In this document: positions 873 through 25,988 of the stretch, in pieces | Numbering within the stretch: position 1 is the stretch's first letter | Layout: every line of letters begins with the position of its first letter | IMG/VR virus record: IMGVR_UViG_3300035670_000690 | Span: 1-36,590 of that record | Strand: one strand, 5' to 3' | Source of the DNA: a virus | Length of the DNA: 36,590 nucleotides | Notes under the pieces: generated by a model | The model's input: the letters and a program-made list of their open reading frames with translations, nothing else | What the model was told of the DNA's origin: nothing | Databases searched by the model: none | Translations under genes and position numbers: made by a program

Positions 873-1976
873 CTAAATCGCCTTCTTTACGCGATTGATG
901 TAGTCCGGGTCCGAGTGGAGATACAGCGTCTGGGTGATCGATGGGTTCGCATGACCCATCATCCGCGAGATGTCCTCCAAAGCAATCTTGCCTTCACGAC
1001 GCCACTTCGAACCGCAGTAATGCCGGAGGCTGTGCAACGCCAAGTGCTCGGGGTAGCCAGACTTCTTGCGCAAGCGCTTCATCACGACACACCAGTTGCT
1101 GTTCGTGATTGCATTCCCGGTCTCAGTCTGGGCGATGAACTCGCCATCTTCGCACGTGTCCACGAACTCTTTCAGGACATCGACACGATCCTCGGCGATC
1201 ACTACACGGCGGACACCCGCCTCAGTCTTGGGACGCTTCACCTCACCCGGCTCGCGAGACGTTTTGACAAACACGACGCGCTCGGCAAAGTCGAAGTCTG
1301 AGGGACGCAGGCCGCGGATCTCCGACCAGCGAAGACCACACGTGCGAGCCATCTCGACGATGAACCCGTACAGGGCCTTCATAGCCCAGGCCGTGGCAAC
1401 CAGTGAATTGGCTTCCGATTCCTTGGGAAGTTCCCACGACTCGACGGGACGGAGTTGAACGTCCATCACCCCGTTCTTGCCTCGCGGCATGCGAAGGTTC
1501 GCAGACGGCTCCTGCCCGGCGACCCAGACGCCATGCTTGACACCATAGTTCCCGATGTAGCGCAGAACTTTCTTGGCCTTCGAGACGGTGTGCTTTGAGA
1601 AGCCGGCGTCGGAGATCTGTTTCAAGACCGCCTTGCAGTCCTCCTGGGATACCGTACGCGCCTTCTTCGAGCCGAGCGCTGGGATGATGTGGATGCGCAG
1701 GATCGAGCGAAGGTTCTGATACGCCTTCTCGTTCCAGCCCTCGAACTCGTCCCGTGCCATCGCCTTATCGGCGACACCACCGAACGTGCCTTCAGGTGAG
1801 CCCGAGCCGCCGGCGGCGATGCGGGCCTCGACTTGCCGGGCAAGATCGCAAGCCTCCTGCCAGGAGGTCTTGGTGCGCTCGACGACCTTGCCGTTCTCGC
1901 GCCAACGGATACGGACATGGTCTGCCCGTTCGACCACCGATACGGTGCCGAACTTGGCCTTACGTAGTTTCTTCAT
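873..1976 (-). CDS. int: Tyrosine recombinase (phage integrase)
   Basis: This 367-residue site-specific recombinase would insert the phage genome into the host chromosome by recombining attP with attB. All catalytic positions of the tyrosine recombinase family are visible: R216 (in GLRWSEI), a lysine around 250 (RPKT), H315 and R318 (HSLRH), H342 (GH) and the nucleophile Y352 (TLYLH). Residues 1-60 form a basic, beta-rich segment like the arm-binding domain of lambda-type integrases. Residues 80-165 resemble the SAM-like core-binding domain. The ATG overlaps the stop of the excisionase-like gene in a TAATG, so the two are probably translated together. The gene reads leftward into the terminator at 834-866. 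The length and full set of residues indicate an active enzyme. Confidence 0.96.
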   Translation of the reverse strand: MKKLRKAKFGTVSVVERADHVRIRWRENGKVVERTKTSWQEACDLARQVEARIAAGGSGSPEGTFGGVADKAMARDEFEGWNEKAYQNLRSILRIHIIPALGSKKARTVSQEDCKAVLKQISDAGFSKHTVSKAKKVLRYIGNYGVKHGVWVAGQEPSANLRMPRGKNGVMDVQLRPVESWELPKESEANSLVATAWAMKALYGFIVEMARTCGLRWSEIRGLRPSDFDFAERVVFVKTSREPGEVKRPKTEAGVRRVVIAEDRVDVLKEFVDTCEDGEFIAQTETGNAITNSNWCVVMKRLRKKSGYPEHLALHSLRHYCGSKWRREGKIALEDISRMMGHANPSITQTLYLHSDPDYINRVKKAI

Positions 1977-2233
1977 TATGCAGCCTTCTTTCTTGATTTG
2001 ATTTGAGGCCCGCGGGACTTCCCTCTTAGGAGGTCCGGCGAGATGTACATGTAGTCGCTGTTGATTGATTTGGATCGGGCCACCCAGCGGTCCAGCTCAT
2101 CGCTGTTGATCCGCGGGGACTTGGGCCCGATGTACACGACCGCCGGGAAGGTCGAGTCGGTACGCGCCTTGCGCCATACCGTCGTCCTGTGCCAGCCGAG
2201 TCGCTTAGCTGTCTCTGTGATGCTGATAAGCAT
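1976..2233 (-). CDS. Excisionase-like small DNA-binding protein
   Basis: An 85-residue basic protein begins MLISITETAKRLG. Residues 5-25 look like the MerR/Xis-type winged helix (TETAKRLGWHRTTVWRKA), followed by a wing-like stretch (FPAVVYIGPKSPRINSDELDRW). Proteins of this size and fold directly upstream of an integrase usually act as recombination directionality factors or as regulators of int. The frame stays open upstream to 2605, but that extension runs through the attP repeats and is not protein-like, so the ATG at 2233 is chosen. No good ribosome site is seen before it. The stop overlaps the integrase start (TAATG). The name excisionase rests on position and fold and is not certain. 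Confidence 0.8.
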   Translation of the reverse strand: MLISITETAKRLGWHRTTVWRKARTDSTFPAVVYIGPKSPRINSDELDRWVARSKSINSDYMYISPDLLRGKSRGPQIKSRKKAA

Positions 2234-2303: not shown

Positions 2304-2541
2304 GTGGGGAAGAAAATGGGGAAGCACCTGCTAAACGCCAATAATGACGGGGCTAACAGGGCATGAATATCTTGCCTTCCAAGCAAGTTACGACACCTCA
2401 CGCGTTGGGCGCATTTTCGCAAAACCCCGATGATCATTGGCTTTTCGGGCATTCCCCTGGTAGCGGGTGTCAGCAGAAATGTGGGGAAAAACGTGGGGAA
2501 ACGGCACGAAAAGGTCCGATTGTGGGGAAGAACGTGGGGAA
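2304..2541. other. attP: Probable attP: three paired arm repeats around a core site
   Basis: Six copies of GTGGGGAA (one is ATGGGGAA) occur as three tandem pairs starting at 2304/2316, 2481/2493 and 2522/2534. The two copies in every pair are exactly 12 bp apart. Such paired direct repeats are the usual form of integrase arm-type sites. Between the first pair and the other two lies an imperfect dyad at 2371-2387 (CTTGC-CTTCCAA-GCAAG), with 5 bp inverted half-sites around 7 bp, the geometry of a tyrosine recombinase core site. The region lies directly upstream of xis-int. It has no protein-like reading frame and accounts for most of the gene-free stretch 2234-2568. The assignment is by pattern and position only. 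Confidence 0.75.
2371..2387 (+). other. Candidate attP core, shaped like a tRNA-Gly anticodon arm
   Basis: CTTGCCTTCCAAGCAAG folds as a 5 bp stem with a 7 nt loop CTTCCAA, whose middle triplet TCC is the glycine anticodon. The TTACG that follows resembles a tRNA variable loop, but no T-arm or acceptor strand comes after it. It shares the 13-mer TGCCTTCCAAGCA with the true tRNA at 2569-2642 (there at 2596-2608). It is best explained as the crossover site matching a host tRNA-Gly(UCC) gene. Confidence 0.65.
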
Positions 2542-2568
2542 GACTCATATAGTTTGGACAGTACCACT

Positions 2569-2642
2569 GCGGGTGAAGTGTTGTGGTGGCACCTCTGCCT
2601 TCCAAGCAGATAGGGCGGGTTCAATTCCCGTCACCCGCTCCA
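2569..2642 (+). tRNA. tRNA-Gly(UCC) with encoded CCA
   Basis: The 74 nt fold as a complete tRNA. A 7 bp acceptor stem GCGGGTG/CACCCGC is followed by discriminator T and an encoded CCA at 2640-2642. There is a D arm with the GG loop, an anticodon stem TCTGC/GCAGA with loop CTTCCAA (anticodon TCC), and a T arm GCGGG-TTCAATT-CCCGT. The U discriminator fits glycine. Position 8 is A and position 14 is T, whereas nearly all tRNAs have U8 and A14; the pair appears to be swapped. The gene follows the attP arm repeats directly and may replace a host tRNA-Gly disrupted by integration. A TATAGT at 2548-2553 could be a -10 box, without a clear -35. Confidence 0.9.
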
Positions 2643-2671: not shown

Positions 2672-3781
2672 ATGCCTTCTAAGAAGCCCGCGAAGAAGAG
2701 CCATCCCAAGGCTGCCCCAAAGAGTAAGTCTGGAAAGCCGCGGAAGTCGTTAGCGAGTCCAGCCAAACAAGTTGCAGCAGTTTCAAGCCCCCGGGATCTC
2801 ACCGCGGCGAAGGCCGGAAAGAAGGACGAGTTCTACACCCAACTTCCGGACATCGAACGGGAGATGAGGCACTACAAAGACCACTTCAAGGGCAAGGTTG
2901 TTTATCTCAACTGCGACGACCCACGGGTCAGCAACTTCTTCCACTACTTCTCATACAACTTCGAAGCCCTCGGCCTGAAGAAAGTAATCGCAACTTGCTA
3001 CAAGAGCCAGGCGACGGACCTCTTCAGCCAGAACGACAGTGAGCAAGCCATATGGCTCGAGTACACCGGCGACAAGGACGGCAACCGAGTACCTGACATT
3101 GATGAAATTGGCGTCAAGCCACTGAGTGGTGACGGAGACTTTCGCAGCCAAGAGAGCATTGACTTATTGAAACAGGCCGACATCGTCGTCACTAATCCCC
3201 CGTTCTCACTCTTCCGCGAGTACATCGCACAACTAATGGCCCACGAGAAGAAGTTCATCGTTCTTGGCAACATGAACGCAGTCTCATACAAGGAAGTTTT
3301 CCCACTGTTTCGAGCTAATCGAATTTGGTATGGGCCAAGCATTAGCAGCGGAGATCGCGAATTCGGAGTGCCAGCGAGCTATCCATTAGCAGCAGCCGGA
3401 AGCCGAGTAGATGAACACGGAAACAAATTTGTACGGGTGAAGGGCGTTCGCTGGTTTACCAACCTCGATTTCCCGAAGCGCCACGAGGACCTGATTCTCT
3501 ACAAGACCTACAGTCCCGCGGAGTACCCCACTTACGACAACTACGACGCGATAGAAGTCAGCAAAACCAAAGAAATCCCAATGGACTACCCCGGCGTAAT
3601 GGGTGTTCCAATTACTTTCCTGGACAAATACAACCCAGACCAATTCGAGATACTCGGAATGGCTGCTTCAAGCTATGACGAGTACATGATGGGTATCCCA
3701 TTCAAAGGGCAAAAGGATGGGCGCCCGATAGTGGCTGGAGCAAACGTGTACGCCCGAATCTTCATCAAGAGAAAGCGCTGA
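2672..3781 (+). CDS. EcoRI-family adenine-specific DNA methyltransferase
   Basis: This 369-residue protein resembles the EcoRI methylase family of N6-adenine methyltransferases, which transfer a methyl group from S-adenosylmethionine to adenine in a short DNA site. The catalytic NPPF is at 175-178 (ADIVVTNPPFSLF). An upstream segment around 76-95 (VVYLNCDDPRVSNFF) fits the cofactor-binding motif I region of that family. Residues 1-50 are a basic Lys/Pro/Ala/Ser tail resembling histone H1 tails. This tail is unlikely to be part of the enzyme fold, and the true start could lie further in. The DUF262-HNH gene begins 2 bp after the stop, so the two form an operon. The methyltransferase probably protects phage (and lysogen) DNA against its partner or against host restriction. 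The target site cannot be read from the sequence. Confidence 0.85.
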   Translation: MPSKKPAKKSHPKAAPKSKSGKPRKSLASPAKQVAAVSSPRDLTAAKAGKKDEFYTQLPDIEREMRHYKDHFKGKVVYLNCDDPRVSNFFHYFSYNFEALGLKKVIATCYKSQATDLFSQNDSEQAIWLEYTGDKDGNRVPDIDEIGVKPLSGDGDFRSQESIDLLKQADIVVTNPPFSLFREYIAQLMAHEKKFIVLGNMNAVSYKEVFPLFRANRIWYGPSISSGDREFGVPASYPLAAAGSRVDEHGNKFVRVKGVRWFTNLDFPKRHEDLILYKTYSPAEYPTYDNYDAIEVSKTKEIPMDYPGVMGVPITFLDKYNPDQFEILGMAASSYDEYMMGIPFKGQKDGRPIVAGANVYARIFIKRKR

Positions 3782-3783
3782 TC

Positions 3784-4866
3784 ATGAAAATTGAACTCAC
3801 CAACGTCGCGATCCGAGAACTTGCCAAGGAGTACCAGGACAACGCCGAAGAAGGAGTAGTCGGATACTCCGGCCGCCTCGACATACGACCACCCTTTCAA
3901 CGGGAGTTCGTATATAAAGACAAACAGCGAGACGCTGTCGTCGACACCGTGTTCAAGGGCTACCCACTAAACGTCATGTATTGGGCTGTCAAAGTTGACG
4001 GCAACTTCGAGATCATCGACGGTCAGCAGCGAACCATCTCCGTCTGCCAATACGTCAACGGAGACTTCTCATTCGGCGACCGGTACTTCCACAACCTGCA
4101 AGACGACGAGAAAGAGAAGTTTCTCAACTACGAACTCACCGTCTACCGATGCGAAGGAACTGACAGCGAGAAACTCGCATGGTTCAAAACCATCAACATC
4201 GCCGGTGAGAAACTCACCGACCAAGAACTACGCAACGCTGTGTACTCCGGTCCGTGGGTCACGGCCGCTAAGAAGATATTCAGCAAGACCGGGTGCGCCG
4301 CCTACGGCCTCGGAAGCGACTACGTCTCAGGCTCCCCCATCCGCCAGGACTACCTCGAAACCGTCATCGACTGGATCAACAATGGCGACATCGAGGGCTA
4401 CATGGCCACCCACCAGCACGACCCGAACGCCAACACCGAGTGGCTGTACTTCCAAGGTGTTATCAACTGGGTGAAAGCGACGTTCCCGAAGTACCGAAGA
4501 GAGATGAAGACGGTCGCCTGGGGCCCTCTATACAACGAACACAAAGACAAGCCACAGGATGCGAAGAAACTCGAAGAGAAGATCGCGCAACTGATGGCAG
4601 ACGACGACGTGACGAAGAAGTCCGGGGTCTACCACTACGTTCTCACCGGTCATGAGCCAAGCCTGAGCATTAGGGCATTCACCGACAACCAGAAGCGAGA
4701 AGCGTTCGAGCGCCAAAAAGGCGTCTGCCCGAAGTGCAAGAAGACTTTCGACCTAAACGAGATGCAGGCCGACCACATCACGCCTTGGAGCAAGGGCGGA
4801 AAGACCACTTCCGACAACTGCCAGATGCTGTGCAAGGACGACAACCGTCGCAAAAGCGACGTCTAA
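3784..4866 (+). CDS. DUF262 protein with C-terminal HNH nuclease domain
   Basis: A 360-residue protein with two domains. The N-terminal DUF262 (ParB/GmrS-like) domain shows PPFQREFVY at 36-44 and the signature DGQQR at 79-83, associated with nucleotide hydrolysis. The last 48 residues form a zinc-bound HNH nuclease with CPKC (C315, C318), DH at 330-331, N345, C350 and N354. Related two-domain proteins include GmrSD and SspE, which restrict modified or unmodified foreign DNA, though those end in DUF1524 rather than this classical HNH. Placement 2 bp after an adenine methyltransferase suggests a restriction or exclusion cassette, with the methyl mark setting what is cut. This activity is inferred. 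Its stop overlaps the stop of the opposing gene at 4863. Confidence 0.86.
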   Translation: MKIELTNVAIRELAKEYQDNAEEGVVGYSGRLDIRPPFQREFVYKDKQRDAVVDTVFKGYPLNVMYWAVKVDGNFEIIDGQQRTISVCQYVNGDFSFGDRYFHNLQDDEKEKFLNYELTVYRCEGTDSEKLAWFKTINIAGEKLTDQELRNAVYSGPWVTAAKKIFSKTGCAAYGLGSDYVSGSPIRQDYLETVIDWINNGDIEGYMATHQHDPNANTEWLYFQGVINWVKATFPKYRREMKTVAWGPLYNEHKDKPQDAKKLEEKIAQLMADDDVTKKSGVYHYVLTGHEPSLSIRAFTDNQKREAFERQKGVCPKCKKTFDLNEMQADHITPWSKGGKTTSDNCQMLCKDDNRRKSDV

Positions 4867-24192: not shown

Positions 24193-25988
24193 AACTGGAT
24201 ATCACTGATTTTTCTGGTGGCATTCTCGAAGCCATTTCACCAGCCGATTTCACGGAACGTCAGAACGCCCTGGTGAAAGGTTTCGTCCTTGAAGACGAGG
24301 TTCGCCTACGCACGCAGGGGCCTATTCAGCGTCTCTCTGCTCTTACTGACGTGGTGGCTTGCCGAACGTTTCGTGGTGCCACCCAGTCGTACATTCTCGT
24401 CCTGCGTACTGGTGGCGTGTTGGATTATGCGGTTACGCCTTCGCGTACTGCGACGAATGCGACTACTTCGGCCATCACTTTCACGAACTTGGCGACACTC
24501 GACTCGAACGCTCGGTTCACTGGCGACGCTCGAACCAAGGTCTCTGGCGAGTACAAACCCGCAACTATCGTCCACTCTCTGTCTGGCGCCTCGAACGGTG
24601 TCATCGTTTACGAGAACGATGCCGGGAACGCATTGTTGATTCAGTCGATTGCGAACGTCTACCCGACGATCTCCAAGAAGGTGGCCTTGGTTCAAGTAAC
24701 CAACGACGGCTCCGGGTATACCACCACGCCGACGGTCGTGTTCACCGGAGGTGGCGGTTCTGGTGCGACCGCGATTGCAGTGGTTCAAAACCAAGCGGTG
24801 ATCGGTGTTCAGGTGACTGCGAGCGGCACTGGGTACACATCGGCACCGACAATTTCTTTCACTGGTGGCGGTGGTTCCGGTGCAACTGCGGAAGCGCTAT
24901 TGGAGGAAACGGCCGACATGGCCGGTGGTGTTCTCCCCCGCCACAATGTCGCTTCGATGTGGGGCGACACTTTGGTGATGGCCGACATTCAATGGTCGGA
25001 AGCCAACGCCGTCTCTGGTCTCAACTCTGGGAACGTGAAGCGGTATTCGAACTTCATGTGGCACGCCGTCGACCCGACCGACCTGACGGTTATCGACCCC
25101 CGCTATCCGGGACGTATCGCCGAGGAGTCTTCGGTGGTGGTCGGGTTGCAGGAAACTTCTGAAGGCCTGATGGTGATAACGACCACCACAACTGGCCAAG
25201 CCGGTCTCGTTTTGCTTCGTGGAACTCCAGACGCCTACGACGTCGAGAAACTTCGTCCAGGTCTCGGACTGCTCCCCGGCATCGATTCGACCATGCGCAG
25301 CCCAGTTCATTGCTGGTGGAACGACGTGGCCTCAACGATGTTCGTCGACAGCCTCGGCAAGATTTATCAAGTTCGCGGATCGCAGGTTGAACGAATCGAC
25401 CGCTACGGGGTTCAAGCCCCCGAGATTGGGAGCAGCACGGATTGTGTTGCTGCAATCGGCCAGTGGTTGTTTGCCTCCCGTGGAGGCCGCTTCTTGGTGA
25501 TGCGCTCATTCGGGACGGATGGGGCTTGGACCGAGTTGGTGAAACCGACTGGTACACCCACATCGTTTTCTGTGGATCGAGACTTGTTGAACTTCGTGTG
25601 CGACAACAAGTTGTATCGCTACTGCATCGAGGGTCTATCGGCTGAACGGGGGAAGGTGGACGGCGCTTACGTCGACTTGGAGTTCGGTACTCGGACGCTT
25701 GGCAATCCGGAGGAGAAGTTGGACAAGTGGTGGACGCAAGCTTCTGTACGAATCGAGTCGATTACCGCCGGCGTTTTGAAGAGTGTGGAGTTGCTTGATC
25801 GCGGCGTCTTGGCTCCGAGCCCTGGGTCTGCTCTGTTCACTTTGAACAAGAGCCTGAGCGCTCGCGACCTGACCACTGTCCCGGGTTTAGGTCCATCTAT
25901 TGAGTGTTCTGCCAAGTTGACCGTGACGGGTGATGTTCGTATCGAGTTGGTCTCTTTTGAGGTTGAGGCTGGGGATGATGAGCGATGA
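24189..25988 (+). CDS. Tail tube/nozzle-like structural protein
   Basis: A 599-residue beta-rich protein. It begins VKLDITDFSGGILEAISPAD, like phage tail tubular protein B/nozzle proteins (an early FSGG followed by beta-propeller-like repeats). Residues 175-240 hold two tandem units SGYTTTPTVVFTGGGGSGAT and TGYTSAPTISFTGGGGSGAT, a repeat seen in tail-associated proteins and probably an exposed Ig-like or linker module. The C-terminal part continues as beta repeats. GTG 24189 is chosen (GGAGG 8 nt upstream, overlap GTGA); a GTG at 24180 is in frame. It probably forms the short tail below the connector. Confidence 0.75.
   Translation: MKLDITDFSGGILEAISPADFTERQNALVKGFVLEDEVRLRTQGPIQRLSALTDVVACRTFRGATQSYILVLRTGGVLDYAVTPSRTATNATTSAITFTNLATLDSNARFTGDARTKVSGEYKPATIVHSLSGASNGVIVYENDAGNALLIQSIANVYPTISKKVALVQVTNDGSGYTTTPTVVFTGGGGSGATAIAVVQNQAVIGVQVTASGTGYTSAPTISFTGGGGSGATAEALLEETADMAGGVLPRHNVASMWGDTLVMADIQWSEANAVSGLNSGNVKRYSNFMWHAVDPTDLTVIDPRYPGRIAEESSVVVGLQETSEGLMVITTTTTGQAGLVLLRGTPDAYDVEKLRPGLGLLPGIDSTMRSPVHCWWNDVASTMFVDSLGKIYQVRGSQVERIDRYGVQAPEIGSSTDCVAAIGQWLFASRGGRFLVMRSFGTDGAWTELVKPTGTPTSFSVDRDLLNFVCDNKLYRYCIEGLSAERGKVDGAYVDLEFGTRTLGNPEEKLDKWWTQASVRIESITAGVLKSVELLDRGVLAPSPGSALFTLNKSLSARDLTTVPGLGPSIECSAKLTVTGDVRIELVSFEVEAGDDER

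Follow-up and report, generated by a model that had tools for sequence, protein, structure and literature searches.

An attachment-site core that copies a tRNA-Gly anticodon arm and an adjacent complete tRNA-Gly gene form a probable tRNA-dependent lysogeny module in an uncultured freshwater phage lineage

Why would a phage whose attachment core copies just the anticodon arm of a tRNA-Gly(UCC) carry a complete tRNA-Gly(UCC) gene close by? A sequence-only reading of this locus had proposed that insertion at the core would break a host tRNA-Gly gene and that the neighboring phage gene replaces it. The DNA analyzed here (the window) is a 36,590-base virus record. Its initial and terminal 127 bases are identical, and this terminal repeat shows that the record is a complete phage genome, assembled as a circle, with 36,463 unique bases. 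It encodes terminase, portal, and major capsid proteins. The features of the locus are as follows.

873 to 1976, minus strand: tyrosine integrase, 367 aa (Pfam PF00589, 2.8e-19; PF22022, 2.6e-7)
1976 to 2230, minus strand: probable excisionase, a small MerR-like helix-turn-helix protein (HTH_17, 5.6e-5, slightly below the curated cutoff)
2304 to 2323, plus strand: left (P) arm-type pair, GTGGGGAA and ATGGGGAA, 12 bp apart (same position in the relative L002, sequence altered)
2371 to 2390, plus strand: attP core CTTGC-CTTCCAA-GCAAG-TTA, a copy of a tRNA-Gly(UCC) anticodon arm plus the start of the variable loop
2481 to 2500, plus strand: right (P') arm-type pair 1 (repeat scan)
2522 to 2541, plus strand: right (P') arm-type pair 2 (repeat scan)
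2569 to 2642, plus strand: complete tRNA-Gly(UCC) with encoded CCA, the putative replacement tRNA (ARAGORN; Rfam RF00005, 55.6 bits)
2672 to 3781, plus strand: EcoRI-type adenine methyltransferase (PF13651, 5.7e-142)
3784 to 4866, plus strand: GmrSD-N plus HNH endonuclease-like protein (PF03235, PF01844)

The integrase contains central and catalytic domains, and alignment identified R216, H315, R318, H342, and Y352 as the usual R...HxxR...H...Y residues. Its best phage integrase matches are only about 24% identical. A metallophosphoesterase-like gene adjoins the integrase gene, and the attP is placed between the xis and int genes and the DNA methyltransferase gene.

The attP was characterized by its repeats and its core. 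Exact copies of GTGGGGAA start at 2304, 2481, 2493, 2522, and 2534, five within 240 bp, compared with 1.33 expected in the whole window; five copies were reached in no shuffle. A sixth copy, at 2316, is ATGGGGAA, with one mismatch. The repeats therefore form three pairs with a spacing of exactly 12 bp each, as had been claimed, but only five of the six copies are identical. Pairs with this spacing were found neither on the opposite strand nor in any of 30 mononucleotide shuffles of the window. Centrally among these arm sites sits the dyad CTTGC-CTTCCAA-GCAAG (2371 to 2387), which is predicted to fold into a 5-bp stem and a 7-nt loop. This 17-mer occurs at 87 other places in viral_contigs, 86 of which read as tRNA in context (the exception is L056), and of 56 loci checked with ARAGORN, 54 gave a tRNA-Gly(tcc) spanning it; the other two are L056 and one contig end. 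By arithmetic, the chance expectation for a given 17-mer in a genome of this size is about 4 per million. The proposed likeness to a tRNA-Gly(UCC) anticodon arm is thus upheld, and so is its truncation, since nothing similar to a T-arm or an acceptor 3' strand follows the dyad in the window. The dyad, a 5-bp inverted repeat flanking 7 bp, also has the form that tyrosine integrases generally use, a pair of core-type sites in inverted orientation with an overlap of 7 bp between them, and CTTCCAA is the probable overlap. The window therefore has an attP in which arm-type sites flank a short core.

The complete tRNA-Gly(UCC) is the sole tRNA that ARAGORN found in the window. Its anticodon stem is TCTGC/GCAGA, and its loop, CTTCCAA, is identical to that of the core. 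Core and tRNA have the same orientation, and the gap from the core end to the tRNA start is 181 bp, correcting the 182 bp given earlier. Because the two have 13 bp in common (TGCCTTCCAAGCA), the phage tRNA might itself be an integrase target; published cores are as short as 8 bp (PMC10865867). It is plausible that the differing outer stem pairs (TCTGC/GCAGA versus CTTGC/GCAAG) would spare the phage tRNA from the integrase.

A relative of the integrase, 60% identical, is encoded on contig IMGVR_UViG_3300011113_000662 (L002, also G001), from a virome of Lake Soyang, South Korea (PMC7553992). Scans of viral_contigs for further close integrase relatives returned L002 only, so that the module was found in two phages. 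The L002 contig retains the excisionase (71%) and has both the methyltransferase and the GmrSD-N/HNH gene. The 19-bp sequence TTGCCTTCCAAGCAAGTTA (window positions 2372 to 2390) is identical in the L002 core, whereas the flanks differ. The L002 arm sites differ in sequence, reading GTGGGGAG, GTGGGAG, and GTTGGGAG, with one further single copy. Their positions are kept: the left pair lies 69 bp before the core start in L002 and 68 bp before it in the window, and the right pairs lie 109 and about 150 bp after it in both phages. Drift of arm sites in sequence but not in position is what would be expected of an integrase with its own sites. The L002 tRNA-Gly(UCC) has the same place and orientation as that of the window, and three of its acceptor pairs have changed with pairing retained (window to L002: 5-66, GC to CG; 6-65, TA to CG; 7-64, GC to AT). 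These three compensatory changes indicate that the tRNA is under selection for structure.

Separately, a TGTAAACA-nn-GGGC-n-TT-like stretch recurs on both sides of the core in the L002 contig (L126:5640-5790; G001 25640-25790), and part of it is present in the window. The L002 stretches are possibly sites for the excisionase or a bending protein.

The tRNA was also compared with the integrase for joint presence and absence. Phage contig IMGVR_UViG_3300007216_000280 (G003; 39,954 bp) shares synteny with the window over most of its extent; identities are 81% for terminase, 78% for portal, and 91% for major capsid. No match to the window integrase, excisionase, methyltransferase, or HNH gene was found in G003, the attP is absent, and ARAGORN found no tRNA. 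A different open reading frame lies there between the phosphoesterase gene and the next conserved gene. Among 80 loci with a relative of the neighboring phosphoesterase gene, 79 have neither a window-type integrase nor a tRNA-Gly, the exception being the L002 contig; one other carries a tRNA-Phe. This linkage is supporting and not decisive, as many of the 80 loci are short and only distantly related (about 50% identity).

Two observations concern the neighboring genes themselves. The methyltransferase gene and the GmrSD-N/HNH gene that follows it (2672 to 4866) form one block with int and the tRNA in both module-bearing phages, and neither was found in G003; the prophage possibly expresses them as a pair for restriction-modification or for superinfection exclusion. 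At the corresponding place in G003 (L123:12367-13000), the phosphoesterase gene is directly followed by one open reading frame in the place of int, attP, and the tRNA, and its sequence looks like that of a putative DNA methyltransferase.

Candidate attB sites were sought by searching the 21-bp core pattern TTGCCTTCCAAGCAAGTTAYG across an 84,980-species genome collection. It occurred in few genomes: Clostridium and related Clostridiales, two Pseudoglutamicibacter, and one Puniceibacterium. The tRNA-Gly(UCC) genes of Pseudoglutamicibacter contain CTTGCCTTCCAAGCAAGTTACG, 22 bp identical to the window attP, and several Clostridium tRNA-Gly genes also contain an exact core match. The suggested search for a matching host arm thus yielded genuine tRNA-Gly genes but no obvious freshwater host, and neither an actual attB nor real attL and attR junctions were found in these genomes; the true common core may therefore be shorter, or the host may be unsampled. 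Among 396 Actinomycetota genomes, TTGCCTTCCAAGCAA was found in Pseudoglutamicibacter and in one non-tRNA match, a 19-mer search allowing 2 mismatches returned a few TAGC/GCTA variants, and a profile of the window integrase (E value of 1e-25) gave no match. The best plasmid match of the window methyltransferase, from Gordonia (74%), is a weak hint of an actinobacterial host.

Two further sets of genomic sites were noted. Some actinobacterial genomes (L221, L223, L224, and L225; G007, G200, and G326) contain TAGCCTTCCAAGCTAGTTA, which has two mutually pairing mismatches to the core; one genome has two copies, of which one is at a contig end. These places are possible near-attB variants. In Puniceibacterium confluentis (NZ_VOJI01000030.1; L104:3416-3600), the 5' half of a tRNA-Gly with the same arm, CTTGCCTTCCAAGCAAGTTATG, breaks off just past the variable loop. 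About 120 bp beyond it lies a gene for an unrelated tyrosine integrase, and ARAGORN found no tRNA in the 8 kb of this locus. The locus looks like a tRNA-Gly into which an element has inserted at this arm, or like an element that carries part of such a gene.

The consequence of integration was examined by in silico recombination of either phage with the tRNA-Gly genes of Pseudoglutamicibacter and Clostridium as stand-in hosts. The predicted attL would consist of the tRNA-Gly 5' half, TTGCCTTCCAAGCAAGTTA, and CGACACCTCACGCG, and the predicted attR of GGGCATGAATATC, the core, and the T-arm. The virtual attR contained no tRNA-Gly, the virtual attL contained none within 150 bp of the core start, and the phage's own tRNA-Gly, further in, was the sole survivor. 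Classic restoration uses an attP that holds the tRNA 3' part, leaving one junction whole; the window attP has no such part, and its common core is too short for tRNA rebuilding. With nothing of the tRNA in the attP but the anticodon arm and the variable-loop start, neither junction would hold a whole tRNA and the host gene would be destroyed, as the sequence-only reading had predicted.

From these data, we consider it very probable that the window carries a tRNA-dependent lysogeny module, in which integration destroys a host tRNA-Gly(UCC) gene and the adjacent phage tRNA-Gly(UCC) replaces it. The integrase would bind the paired arm sites, and the attP core would recombine with the matching anticodon arm of the host gene, with crossover probably within the 7-bp loop sequence CTTCCAA. 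The complete tRNA, 181 bp past the core and inside the prophage, would then substitute for the broken gene. A phage-encoded tyrosine integrase and a phage tRNA whose isotype matches the core, conserved in L002, are both in keeping with such a module. The replacement arrangement is further favored by the absence of the tRNA where the integrase is absent and by a mycobacteriophage precedent (PMC10865867). The sequence itself shows how the attP is built and that it is conserved, that the tRNA is intact and linked to the integrase, and that the in silico junctions rebuild no tRNA-Gly; on the host side, an attB at this arm, an essential target gene, and rescue by the phage tRNA are inferred.

Other explanations share parts of this evidence. 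The attP could be as described and the tRNA-Gly an ordinary phage tRNA, serving lytic translation or countering tRNA-cutting defenses, with its proximity to the attP a coincidence. Transfer RNAs are common among phages, and defense-related roles have been discussed (PMC10865867). However, this tRNA is the sole one of the genome, matches the core in isotype, and accompanies the window-type integrase, being absent where the latter is absent. The codons that UCC reads, GGA and GGG, make up 33% of the glycine codons overall but none of the 26 in the major capsid gene, and we regard an ordinary tRNA as improbable. Only slightly better odds attach to a host with several tRNA-Gly(UCC) genes, or a dispensable one, in which integration would be harmless and the phage tRNA of modest benefit. 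Some bacteria with the exact anticodon arm, such as Clostridium, do have several copies, yet the compensatory changes that keep the structure are hard to explain for a dispensable tRNA.

Least probable by far is a reading in which the core at 2371 is a remnant and the complete phage tRNA-Gly serves as the attachment site or marks a prophage boundary. The 13 bp common to both would allow it, but the arm sites flank the core and not the tRNA in both phages, and the tRNA is flanked to the left and right by phage genes that a relative has in common. Since the genome closes on itself through its 127-bp terminal repeat, we rejected a prophage boundary here.

The position of the phage tRNA may bear on its expression. 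As the tRNA is codirectional with the core and lies on the P' side, transcription from the host tRNA promoter would cross the broken 5' half and then the P' arm before reaching the phage tRNA, and the spare tRNA may be transcribed from that promoter after integration. In neither phage did consensus scans of the stretch from xis to the tRNA reveal a sigma-70-like promoter or a terminator, a result that says little, as the generic consensus may not be the host's. We offer only tentatively the idea that the tRNA is placed so that integration swaps tRNA genes behind one host promoter by read-through via the P' arm. If so, the replacement would be expressed mainly after correct integration, and survival of the lysogen would be tied to the right site.

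The idea of a replacement tRNA is not new: the sequence-only reading effectively rederived the published tRNA-dependent lysogeny, which Guerrero-Bustamante and Hatfull (2024; PMC10865867) showed by genetics in mycobacteriophages. There, common cores are 8 to 17 bp, the tRNA is not rebuilt, the phage encodes a tRNA of the same isotype, and deleting that tRNA abolishes lysogeny. The tRNA-dependent cases involve tRNA-Lys-TTT, Ile2-CAT, and Leu-CAA, whereas all phages with a tRNA-Gly attB in the table of that study rebuild the tRNA. Fionnbharth (cluster K4) and the cluster L phages resemble the window in having a tyrosine integrase and arm-site pairs around a short core (9 to 17 bp; PMC10865867 table), and its proposed scheme in having a core inside a host tRNA gene that is not rebuilt and a phage tRNA of the same isotype. 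The Fionnbharth tRNA, however, is encoded on the opposite strand, about 2.8 kb away from int, and has a demonstrated promoter of its own (PMC10865867), unlike the near and codirectional tRNA of the window. Gaia (cluster X; PMC10865867) has an 8-bp core in a tRNA-Leu(CAA) gene and, as in the window, a phage tRNA just past int, but it differs in isotype, integrase family, and cultured host. A shared-word search of the Gaia and Fionnbharth cores against their own tRNAs gave nothing useful. Boilgate and Omega (PMC10865867) also have a tyrosine integrase that recombines inside a tRNA gene, but their cores are about 38 to 52 bp, and the tRNA 3' half present in their attP sites restores the gene, which the window attP does not do. 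The Lactobacillus johnsonii prophage Lj965, in a Firmicute, reportedly does not rebuild the tRNA and encodes the cognate one (via PMC10865867). What is new here is the Gly-UCC isotype, the distant integrase, and the uncultured freshwater lineage.

When tRNA-dependent lysogeny was described in 2024 in cultured Actinobacteria phages, its spread elsewhere was left open (PMC10865867). A short anticodon-arm core between arm sites with an adjacent cognate tRNA gives a signature by which phage genomes from the environment can be screened. The module offers an explanation for phage genomes with just one tRNA gene, and its layout points to a link, open to testing, between integration and the expression of the spare tRNA.
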